A stretch of DNA of 64,000 nucleotides from Methanohalophilus sp. RSK (GTDB taxonomy: Archaea > Halobacteriota > Methanosarcinia > Methanosarcinales > Methanosarcinaceae), in the NCBI RefSeq assembly GCF_003722075.1, contig NZ_RDSK01000001.1, positions 248,001 to 312,000 of the forward strand, given 5' to 3'. The notes below the pieces were generated by a model. The model was not told where the DNA came from, did no database searches, and saw nothing but the letters and a program-made list of their open reading frames with translations. Position numbers and translations under genes: made by a program. This document shows, piece after piece, positions 9,320 through 32,995 of this stretch. Position 1 is the stretch's first letter; each line of letters opens with the position of its first letter.

Positions 9320-9422
9320 GCCTGTAAAATGGGTTATCGGCAGTATATATTAGTTATGTATAGCCCTTTTCCAAAAATCTGGCTTTGAGAAAATTCACCA
9401 AAAAGCAATAACACAAGAAAAT

Positions 9423-30369: not shown

Positions 30370-32601
30370 TCAAATGTATCCTGTAAATGAGCCTGCGTCT
30401 GTCTTGCGGATTGATCCGCCTTTCAATTTATCTTGAACCCGGCTGTAGAAGTCTATCATGTCCTCATTGACCGTTGGCTTTACTTTTTCCATAGCTGAAA
30501 GGAAATGTCTTTTGCTTACCTTTTCATTATCAAAATTTTCTCTCAGGGATAACATTGCTGCTTCCCTGCATATGGATTCTATATCTGATCCAACGTAGCC
30601 TTCAGTCATTGTGGCAAGTTCCTTTAGGTCAACATCACTATCCAGGGGTATACCCATTGTGTGAATGCGGAATATTCTTTCCCTGCCCTCGGCGGGTGCG
30701 GCTCCTACCATTACAAGCCTGTCAAATCTTCCTGATCGCAGTAATGCCGGATCAATAAGGTCGGGCCTGTTGGTGGCTGCAATGACAACCACTTCATTCA
30801 GGGGTTCAAGTCCATCCATCTCGGTAAGCATCTGATTGACAACCTGTTCGGAAACCCGGCTGCCTACATCACTGCCACCCTGTCTTGTCGAAGAGATAGC
30901 ATCGATTTCGTCAAAGAATATTATACAGGGTGCAACCTGTCGTGCTTTTTTGAAAGTATCACGAATTGCCTTTTCAGATTCCCCCACGTATTTGGACAAT
31001 ATCTGGGGCCCTTTGACACTGATGAAATTGGCATTAGCTTCGTTTGCCACAGCTTTGGCAAGCAGGGTTTTGCCTGTCCCCGGAGGGCCATATAAAAGTA
31101 TTCCTGTGGGAGGTTTGATACCCATCTGGCTTATTTTATCGGGCCATTTAAGCGGCCATTCGACTGCTTCGCTGATATCTTTTCTGGCCAGGTCCAGCCC
31201 GCCAACGTCGTCCCATCCCACAGACGGTATTTCAACCATGACTTCCCTCATTGCCGAGGGCTCAATTTCCTTCAGGGCTTCCTCGAAGTCATCGGGCGTG
31301 ACTTCCAGTTTATCGAGTATTTCCTGTGGAATTTCCTCTTCATCGAGATTGATGTCAGGAAGCAATCTCCTCAGTGCCCTCATGGAGGCTTCCTGTACAA
31401 GGGCTAATAGATCGGCTCCCACAAAACCCTGGGTATATTCTGCCAGGTGTTCAAAATATTCTTCATCGATATCTTCGTTCAGAGGCATTCCACGGGTGTG
31501 GATCTGAAGTATTTCGAGCCTGTCTTCACTATCGGGAACGCCGATTTCGATTTCCCTGTCAAATCTGCCCGGGCGGCGCAGGGCCGGGTCAATAGAATCA
31601 AGCCTGTTTGTGGCTGCAATTACAACTACCTGTTTACGTTCATCCATTCCATCCATCAGGGTGAGAAGCTGGGCTACAACCCTTCTTTCTACTTCTCCGG
31701 TGACGTCTTCCCTTTTTGGGGCAATGGAATCGACTTCGTCAACAAATATTATCGAGGGGGCATTCTCCGCAGCTTCATCAAATATTTTTCGTAGCCTTTC
31801 CTCACTTTCCCCGTAATATTTTCCCATTATTTCCGGACCGGCAATGTTGATGAAATGGGCGTTAGATTCACTTGCAACCGCTCTTGCTATCAGGGTTTTC
31901 CCTGTGCCGGGTGGTCCATAGAGAATAACACCCTTTGGTGGGTCTATATTTAGACGCAGGAAGAGCTCGTGATGTTTCAACGGAAGTTCTATCATTTCAC
32001 GTACCCGTTGAATTTCGGTTCTAAGCCCGCCGATATCCTCGTAATTGATACCTCTGGCAGCTCCCTCATAACCCACTACAGGTTTCTGCTGGAGTTGGAT
32101 CTCAGTATTTTCATTGATGATAAGTATGCCATCAGATGGCTCGGTTTCAACAGCTATTAGGGGAATGGCCTGACTACCCGGGGTAGTTTGCCCCATGGAA
32201 CTGATTATAGGAATAATGTCACCTTTTACAAGGGGACGTTTCAGGATATTATGTTTGATAACGGCACTTGTATTGTCACCAAACTCCATGACGATTCCCT
32301 CTGGAGGTGCAAGGAGTACTTTTTCTGCGGGTATTGGCTCTGCCTTACTAAGTGTTATCCTCTCACCAATCCCCACTTCTGCATTCTGTCGTGTATAACC
32401 ATCTATACGGGCAATTCCCTGTCCCCAATCCTGTCTGTCAGCACGCCATACCTTTGCCGTAGTTTGGCGCTTTCCTTCGATTAGGACAATGTCTCCGGGG
32501 GAAAGCTGCAGGCTCAGGAGGGTACTCGGATCAAGTCGTATTATACCCCTGCCAAAATCGATAGGATGCGCTTTCTCCACTTTTATCTGTAACTCTTCCA
32601 T
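30370..32601 (-). CDS. cdc48: Cdc48/VCP (VAT) AAA ATPase
   Basis: A homohexameric unfoldase that extracts and unfolds proteins for degradation. The 743-residue protein has the N-domain (about 1-185, double-psi barrel start [13 protein letters not shown]), then D1 and D2 AAA modules, each with G-P-P-G-T-G-K-T (about 225-232 and 498-505), Walker B I-I-F-V-D-E-V-D and I-I-F-F-D-E-I-D, and sensor/arginine-finger R-R-P-G-R-F-D-R and R-S-G-R-F-D-R. The C-terminus ends in T-G-Y-I. Followed by the PRC-barrel gene. Confidence 0.97.
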
Positions 32602-32819
32602 TTAGTTCATCCCGAAAATATGTTGTACTGATATGTCTATCTTATTAAATTCCCAAATGATATATATTTATGGTACTGCCCCTGTTTTTTCTTCTTGCAA
32701 AGGTTTGAAAGGACACAGCGTAAAACCCCTGGGTCTTTAGCCCAGGGGATATAAGCGTCAACTTACCCATGATTTAATAACTTCCTTTAACTCAGAATCG
32801 ATACCAGAAATACAGAAAA

Positions 32820-32828
32820 GTATATAAA
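32820..32828 (+). promoter_or_regulatory. TATA box of the element's internal RNA
   Basis: GTATATAAACC after an A-rich BRE (CAGAAAAG). Predicted start near 32850. The only strong TATA in the element and correctly oriented for the putative RNA. Confidence 0.6.
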
Positions 32829-32849
32829 CCTTTGAATCACATGATACTT

Positions 32850-32958
32850 ACGATGTTAAGGCACCCTCGGGACGAGGGGAAGGGCCTGTGGACTTGTGAA
32901 CGTGAGTTCAAAGGATGAAGCAGGAAGCCCCTGAGTCTTTAGCTCAGGGATAGTTCAC
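32850..32958 (+). ncRNA. Orphan omega-RNA (reRNA / sotRNA) candidate
   Basis: About 110 bases with three hairpins: CCCTCG-GGA-CGAGGG (32864-32878), TGAAC-GTGA-GTTCA with a GNRA-type tetraloop (32897-32910), and the terminal CCCTGAG/CTCAGGG stem (32929-32949). In IS200/IS605 elements the end of tnpB plus the right end is transcribed as a guide RNA for TnpB, and archaeal IS1341-type elements make sense-overlapping transcripts from this place. Here it has its own TATA and no tnpB. The guide would be the flank after 32958 (ACTAATTTGTGCC onward). Confidence 0.6.
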
Positions 32959-32995
32959 TAATTTGTGCCTTCTAGAAAGGCTAATTTAAATAAGG

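Follow-up and report, generated by a model that had tools for sequence, protein, structure and literature searches.

In the IS605-family elements of Geobacillus stearothermophilus, a bacterial system, Meers et al. in 2023 reportedly found that one TnpA moves several elements in trans; TnpB is said to keep the elements at their site, and protein-less elements may reportedly have been shown there too. TnpA recognises subterminal hairpins, and transposition should need just the two ends of an element. IS605 elements take their guide from the DNA directly following the right end (RE), and their left-end target serves as the TAM (PMC8612924). TnpB-guided retention of such elements has been proposed (PMC8612924), with a plasmid gene drive described in PMC11870625. 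Of 16,029 RAGATH-18 RNAs, 10,258 adjoin an IS607 tnpB and 36% do not (PMC11061315). Finally, Haloquadratum walsbyi carries palindrome-associated transposable elements, or PATEs (PMC3119063).

The locus of interest lies in the window, by which we mean the whole 64,000-nucleotide stretch that was analysed (G000:C1:248001-312000, from a genome of 1.97 Mb in 18 contigs). We read it as a PATE, or IS605-type MITE: a non-autonomous derivative consisting of transposon ends and a guide-RNA gene, for which TnpA and TnpB probably act in trans. We give this reading as a whole a somewhat better than even chance. Its structural part is near certain, while function in trans, judged from sequence, is about an even bet. 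The features of the locus are as follows.

32709..32958, plus strand: whole remaining element, ~249 nt (from empty sites in five congeners and alignment with copy 2 and the parent)
32710..32771, plus strand: left end (LE) with subterminal hairpin at 32726-32748, loop TCTTTAG (parent LE 89% over query 1-75; empty-site comparison)
32772..32810, plus strand: 39-nt piece of the parent's tnpA region (100% to C1:210086-210124)
32811..32859, plus strand: the parent's tnpB promoter region (TATATAAA at 32821-32828) and ATGTTA at 32853-32858 (92% to C1:210210-210258)
32860..32934, plus strand: fossil frame for a TnpB C-terminal tail, unread by the parent's TnpB
32861..32958, plus strand: omega-RNA scaffold with the RE (94% to C1:211365-211462; covariation; RAGATH-18 below threshold)
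32864-32869/32873-32878, 32885-32889/32920-32924 and 32893-32901/32906-32913, plus strand: scaffold helices (covariation)
32929-32935/32943-32949, plus strand: RE hairpin helix (covariation)
32959..32978, plus strand: guide TAATTTGTGCCTTCTAGAAA, the host DNA directly 3' of the RE (position by analogy with PMC8612924)
32996..33211, plus strand: TRAM-domain protein gene, downstream neighbour outside the element
30370..32601, minus strand: CDC48-type AAA ATPase gene, divergent neighbour outside the element

A subterminal hairpin is present at each end: CCCCTGGG-TCTTTAG-CCCAGGGG on the left (32726-32748) and CCCTGAG-TCTTTAG-CTCAGGG on the right (32929-32949). The two share strand and loop, as stated in the preliminary description of this DNA, and the TAGTTCAC end that it named is present at 32951-32958; its left edge, placed at 32726, is corrected to ~32709/32710. 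The hairpins lie inside two 43-nt direct repeats, 202 nt apart and 77% alike. Two other origins were considered and ruled out: chance hairpins, since a degenerate form of the pattern matches twice in 64 kb against 0.03 expected, and a pair of unrelated solo right ends, since the left part is the parent's LE and the middle its tnpA and promoter regions. We take the TATA at 32821-32828 to be an archaeal TATA box; a scan for sigma-70 promoters and terminators, with models not meant for archaea, found nothing.

The same genome contains a complete, tnpB-bearing IS605-type parent at C1:209750-211462. Its tnpA (minus strand, 131 aa) is full-length and scores 119 bits against Y1_Tnp, and its tnpB (plus strand, 370 aa from the start codon used) contains HTH_OrfB, OrfB_IS605 and TNB domains. 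The window element is such a parent minus three internal stretches, with both ends retained and both genes, tnpA and tnpB, missing. What is kept comprises (i) the LE (209750-209822, 89% identity), (ii) 39 nt of the tnpA region (210086-210124, 100%), (iii) 49 nt covering the tnpB promoter region and first two codons (210210-210258, 92%), and (iv) the 98 nt from after the tnpB stop codon to the RE (211365-211462, 94%). By this comparison, three internal deletions have brought the omega-RNA scaffold and RE next to the LE and the promoter of tnpB. ATGTTA (32853-32858) is the tnpB start codon with the second codon, and the TATA now lies 32 nt ahead of the scaffold. The earlier account of a deletion derivative of an IS200/IS605 element, reduced to a guide-RNA scaffold behind a TATA, is thus borne out; its idea that this promoter is the RNA's own, newly placed, is not, because the promoter sequence matches the parent's tnpB promoter region, retained in place. 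Given a full-length TnpB of the same family elsewhere in the genome, service in trans is possible.

The 24-residue frame at 32860-32934 (GTLGTRGRACGLVNVSSKDEAGSP, then a stop) had been taken for a TnpB tail. The frame is real, and it resembles genuine TnpB tails of sister subfamilies, such as GTAGRACGLMNISSGNEARS in L177. However, the direct parent's TnpB meets its stop (TAA) immediately before the scaffold region; since the protein ends ahead of the scaffold, the frame is no part of it. We have therefore ruled out this role in the parent's lineage and keep the stretch as a fossil frame. For the 93 family loci with tnpB sequence upstream of the scaffold, the end of the upstream frame was compared with the first base of the scaffold: 62 loci have it at most 3 nt away, 11 at +15, 15 at +74 to +86, and the remaining 5 at another or an unclear position. 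Six of the seven loci inspected from the +74 to +86 group have a window-like tail, the seventh (L248) being unlike it.

The same genome holds a second copy, C1:164312-164562 (minus strand, 248 nt; copy 2), whose three junctions are identical to those in the window. The derivative thus appears to have spread after forming, and the simplest account of the shared junctions is that it arose once. Between the two copies, 5 of 98 scaffold positions differ and 11 of 149 elsewhere (p 0.60); by our own reading, all five scaffold differences leave the pairs intact. The TATA of copy 2 is partly lost. Five exact empty sites show copy 2 as a 248-nt insertion after TTTAT, with no duplication. The first 20 guide bases of copy 2 agree fully with the empty sites of G001, G005 and G006, whereas G002 and G004 each show a single mismatch. 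A pattern scan of the genome contigs for the junction gave 0 matches. As we read the sequences, the insertion that gave copy 2 fell on a stop codon (TTTATGA; G000:C1:164562), and the junction TTTATAG restores an in-frame stop.

The window site itself is empty in five congeners (L089-L093), where TTTAT is followed directly by TAATTTGTGCCTTCTAG. These empty sites place the right end exactly after TTCAC (32958). In the more distant congeners G003 and G007, no scaffold match was found at the window site, and the sites are not alignable base by base. While the fit to the empty sites is exact on the right, the left side has suffered a loss of about 20 nt of flank at 32709, and the TTTAT went with it. 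With TTTAT the left cleavage site is gone, and hence the window copy is probably immobile, fixed in place.

The empty sites identify TTTAT as the target and presumptive TAM: insertion 3' of this fixed sequence, without duplication, is seen in the exact empty sites of copy 2 and of a further element, C13:26298. Among nine other elements, two of which are the same site in two species, the left-end motif is TTTAT in seven and GTTAT in two, the parent being one of the latter. In an amplified family of the genomes G081 and G096 it is mostly TTTAC or CTTAC, and in Sulfolobus islandicus elements TTTAA and TTTAT (PMC10640517). The window guide, TAATTTGTGCCTTCTAGAAA, directly follows the RE and is identical to the TTTAT-flanked empty allele in G001, G002, G005 and G006, that is, in four of the five congeners; in G004, this stretch is one base shorter. 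Searching the own genome with up to 3 mismatches gave one match to the guide, namely the element's own RE junction (a reversed control also gave one), and no other site of TAM plus 20-nt guide within 3 mismatches. A shorter guide, searched in the window only, gave 4 matches against 1.27 expected: the own junction and three at 3 mismatches.

Folded alone, the window sequence is moderately stable (z -1.80; 11 of 200 shuffles equally good). This is unexceptional, and so the case for structure rests on covariation. Four helices, with 22 pairs, were drawn by hand and assessed in an alignment of 10 of the 11 good own-genome scaffold matches (C4 omitted as a repeat of C6). In these ten scaffolds, 98.6% of cells are paired and 11 of the 22 pairs have changed on both sides; none of 500 shuffles reaches that value, and slid versions drop to 38-55%. 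Since the scaffold lies at or after the tnpB stop in most relatives, coding does not explain the covariation. The window thus contains a covarying fold that ends at the RE, as is expected of an omega-RNA. A scan of Rfam at the curated threshold gave 0 matches, and neither RF02656 nor RF02657, the haloarchaeal sotRNA/omega-RNA families, matches the scaffold; below threshold, RAGATH-18 matches with 25.6 bits (E 0.012; cut-off 44.9). A model of the scaffold has matches in 83 of 111 family genomes at E 1e-5, and the related repeats on which the preliminary description staked its case therefore exist.

The fold is also seen in scaffolds that have lost their tnpB. Pairing reaches 97.9% of cells in a set of 45 distinct tnpB-less scaffolds, where 13 pairs show two-sided changes; the values for 56 distinct tnpB-linked scaffolds are 99.7% and 16. 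Unpaired cells are more frequent in the former (21 of 986 versus 4 of 1228, p 6e-5), which suggests weaker constraint on tnpB-less scaffolds. Both sets were chosen by hand: the tnpB-linked one from 59 loci (14 belonging to the genus, plus 45 out of the family's 93), the tnpB-less one from 46 sources, with alignments fitted to the model. The latter set omits the decayed L251, L259, L278, L310, L319, L320 and L322, along with the C1:128618 group, L087, and loci that retain a longer piece of tnpB; as the most decayed copies are omitted, the true gap is probably larger.

Eight genomes of the genus yielded 34 scaffolds, 33 of which were read (all except G001:C4:45770). Directly upstream of 14 lies a tnpB, in two cases with an internal stop, and two scaffolds at contig ends (C4, C6) were left unclassified. 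The other 17 are tnpB-less, carry a tnpB remnant, or are old remnants. They are the window element and copy 2; C13:7093 and its G006 orthologue; C13:26298 and its G006 and G001 orthologues; G001:C10:49013, G004:224435 and G001:C18:211637; G002:773002, with no left end seen; G004:1062191, where by our own reading tnpA-like sequence remains; and a degenerate group of five members in five species, with similar flanks. The C13:26298 element (216 nt) occupies one site in G000, G006 and G001 that is exactly empty in G002, G004 and G005. The guide of this element (located at C13:26298-26392, L056; orthologues L079 and L080) extends into the start of a gene with the look of a KaiC/RadA-like ATPase, and the element may serve as promoter or leader of that gene.

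Several further observations were made in these genomes. In the C13:7093-type orthologues L077 and L055, a difference of ~4 nt right after the RE puts the guides out of register while the flanks are orthologous. G000, G001 and G006 each contain several copies of a dispersed repeat of ~300 nt, most of them 88-93% alike (L056 about 990-1300; L299-L302). The degenerate remnant with similar flanks in five species comprises G000:C1:128618-128708, L086, L070, L071 and L085, and the G000 member is directly preceded by another, different tnpA/tnpB pair. At G000:C1:~9352-9401 (L030) there is a terminal-only scar of ~50 nt, in which LE and RE halves are fused into one hairpin; this scar (9352-9401) resembles the terminal-only PATEs of Haloquadratum.

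Among the 150 matches listed by the family-wide model search, 128 lie outside the genus; 110 of these were examined and the 18 at contig ends were skipped. At 93 of the 110 loci tnpB sequence lies upstream, at 6 it does not, and at 11 there is too little upstream sequence. At least four of the 93 (L160, L172, L178, L187) keep only 86-118 nt of tnpB. Other tnpB-less elements outside the genus were found in G040 and in G081/G096. The latter form an amplified tnpB-less family of ~260 nt in two subfamilies: of 25 loci aligned (10 in G081, 13 in G096, 2 in G083), 24 have the scaffold, and the 3' flanks are nearly all different. The analysis of this family leaves out L311-L318 and L321, which are full-length relatives and others; in the full-length relatives in G081 and G096, LE and scaffold are ~1.3 kb apart. 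A separate observation concerns the small, fragmented genome G008: the TnpB zinc-finger domain family is matched there 84 times, many of the listed matches falling in short open frames, and many scaffolds lie at contig ends. The picture is one of IS605 elements that have massively multiplied and decayed.

The positions of the deletions bear on whether the scaffold was kept for a reason. In a hand tally, 7 of 23 deletion events end at most 8 nt from the scaffold's first base: those of the window family, C13:7093, C13:26298, G002:773002, G004:1062191, the G081 family and G040. The remaining breakpoints lie at -27 to about -914, with one at about +36; for L151, L176, L207, L219, L237 and L241, the offset is the end of the TnpB match only. 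If breakpoints are independent and uniform, the binomial probability of 7 in 23 is 4e-8 (4e-6 at a doubled rate near the end), with deeper deletions under-counted because the locus-finding model needs a near-intact scaffold. In the window, the tnpB deletion spans the second codon to the stop codon. At C13:7093 it starts at most ~13 nt upstream of the tnpB start and extends to the scaffold, so that the promoter is fused to the scaffold. Such near start-to-stop deletions suggest selection for a directly transcribed guide RNA. Elsewhere, the deletion has cut into the scaffold (G001:C18:211637) or left none of it (C1:9355).

Evidence from the sequences for selection on the scaffold after tnpB loss is mixed. 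Divergence was compared over 22 loci of the amplified family, with L309, L319 and L320 dropped. In subfamily A (15 copies), scaffold and spacer diverge at 0.058 and 0.062 (variable columns, p 0.25), and in subfamily B (7 copies) at 0.013 and 0.076 (p 0.006); over both, 11 of 418 scaffold pair cells are broken. As the scaffold does not change significantly more slowly than the rest in subfamily A or between the window and copy 2, retention of the scaffold after spread may not be general. In the core helix of C13:7093, U-A replaces C-G, a paired double change. The same U-A is found at that position in 11 of 56 tnpB-linked scaffolds, and thus the variant may be inherited and is weak evidence.

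On the reading we prefer, a guide-RNA-bearing element served in trans, the following steps are envisaged. The parent's TnpA would move the element in trans, as the two copies with identical junctions suggest, and the tnpB promoter would yield a short omega-RNA needing no excision from mRNA. The TnpB of the parent, or of the C2 or C16 elements, would bind the putative RNA and cut alleles without the insertion, upon which repair would copy the element back. Although the window copy is probably stuck, its RNA might still direct cutting to the empty allele where chromosomes are mixed or present in several copies. A bolder extension is that, in this archaeal family, guide-RNA-only elements (ends, promoter and omega-RNA, without proteins) are recurrent second-order parasites that depend on a borrowed TnpA for movement and a borrowed TnpB for the cutting of empty alleles; we advance it tentatively and think it rather unlikely. 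If true, each copy would be the smallest natural self-reprogramming drive, at ~250 nt. Selection for this drive would then account for independent deletions halting at the first base of the scaffold, and for the expansion of one family to over 20 differently guided copies across three genomes.

The element could instead be an inert fossil: a deletion derivative whose scaffold survives only through its youth and its position beside the RE needed for transposition, its RNA having no role. We regard this as a substantial possibility, though not the one we would back. Core deletions are known from the PATEs of Haloquadratum (PMC3119063). It also fits with the scaffold evolving no slower than the rest in subfamily A and between window and copy 2, with the greater number of broken pairs in tnpB-less scaffolds, and with the existence of terminal-only (C1:9355) and half-scaffold (G001:C18:211637) derivatives. 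Yet if the ends alone suffice for movement, separate derivatives had no need to keep the full scaffold with a deletion at or near its first base, and the deletions in the window and C13:7093 run nearly from start to stop codon of tnpB. The paired U-A change in the C13:7093 core helix counts against an inert RNA only weakly, 11 of 56 tnpB-linked scaffolds sharing it. The gathering of breakpoints at the hairpin foot in separate elements might also arise without selection, were the scaffold's 5' hairpin a deletion hotspot (for example, if TnpA, which recognises subterminal hairpins, mistakes it for an end); the breaks of other derivatives, anywhere from -27 to about -914, make this improbable.

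A role for the host is the least probable of the readings considered, and we think it very unlikely that promoter and scaffold now act on the TRAM gene, driving or regulating it as an adopted RNA or leader. The arrangement invites the idea: the element sits between the divergent CDC48 and TRAM genes, points at TRAM and ends 38 nt before that gene starts, and the similar tnpB-less C13:26298 lies just ahead of a gene start at one place in three species. Against it, the AT-rich TTTAAATA (32985-32992), which we take to be the TRAM promoter, is still present ahead of the gene. Moreover, the insertion is absent from all five aligning congeners, and no retention over time is evident. Adoption as a host sRNA, raised in the preliminary description, would place the element at the same site across species; with the site empty in those five and no scaffold match in G003 and G007, the idea finds no support for the window copy.

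Were the RNA of this locus to work in trans, as in the reading we prefer, the element would be kept and driven by an RNA-guided nuclease without any protein of its own. That would explain orphan omega-RNAs, such as the 36% of RAGATH-18 RNAs without an adjoining IS607 tnpB (PMC11061315), and would point to a natural route leading from TnpB elements to free-standing guide-RNA genes of the CRISPR type. Natural empty alleles with TAM and target are now named, and provide archaeal material for a direct test.

Set against described systems, the element resembles the PATEs of H. walsbyi, which are likewise short and protein-less, with near-terminal IS605-like palindromes and an origin by core deletion, and some of which have expanded at >90% identity (PMC3119063). 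Their core deletions are repeat-mediated and leave fused ends, unlike those here (PMC3119063); the 2011 paper predates omega-RNA, and its available part does not mention a kept guide RNA or promoter (PMC3119063). With ISDra2 and its TnpB and omega-RNA/reRNA, our element shares a scaffold that ends at the RE and a guide taken from the 3' flank (PMC8612924), as well as a TAM equal to the left-end target and the proposed cutting of the empty donor joint (PMC8612924). It differs from ISDra2 in having neither tnpA nor tnpB, and its RNA would start at the tnpB promoter rather than be excised from mRNA (compare PMC10278001). The haloarchaeal sotRNAs/omega-RNAs (RF02656, RF02657) are also archaeal and overlap the tnpB of IS200/IS605 elements (PMC12558985); they sit on tnpB genes, unlike the window scaffold (PMC12558985). 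RAGATH-18 has the core CCTGTGGA...GATGAAGCAGGAA in common with the scaffold (25.6 bits, below the 44.9 cut-off) but is the reRNA of IS607 TnpBs, whereas the window element belongs to IS605 (PMC11061315). Within the titles and opening abstract lines retrieved from the open-licence literature, we found nothing on tnpB-less elements that keep a guide RNA. PATEs formed by core deletion, proposed TnpB retention and archaeal omega-RNAs are already known; the present case adds that they occur combined, repeatedly and with junctions defined exactly, within one archaeal family.
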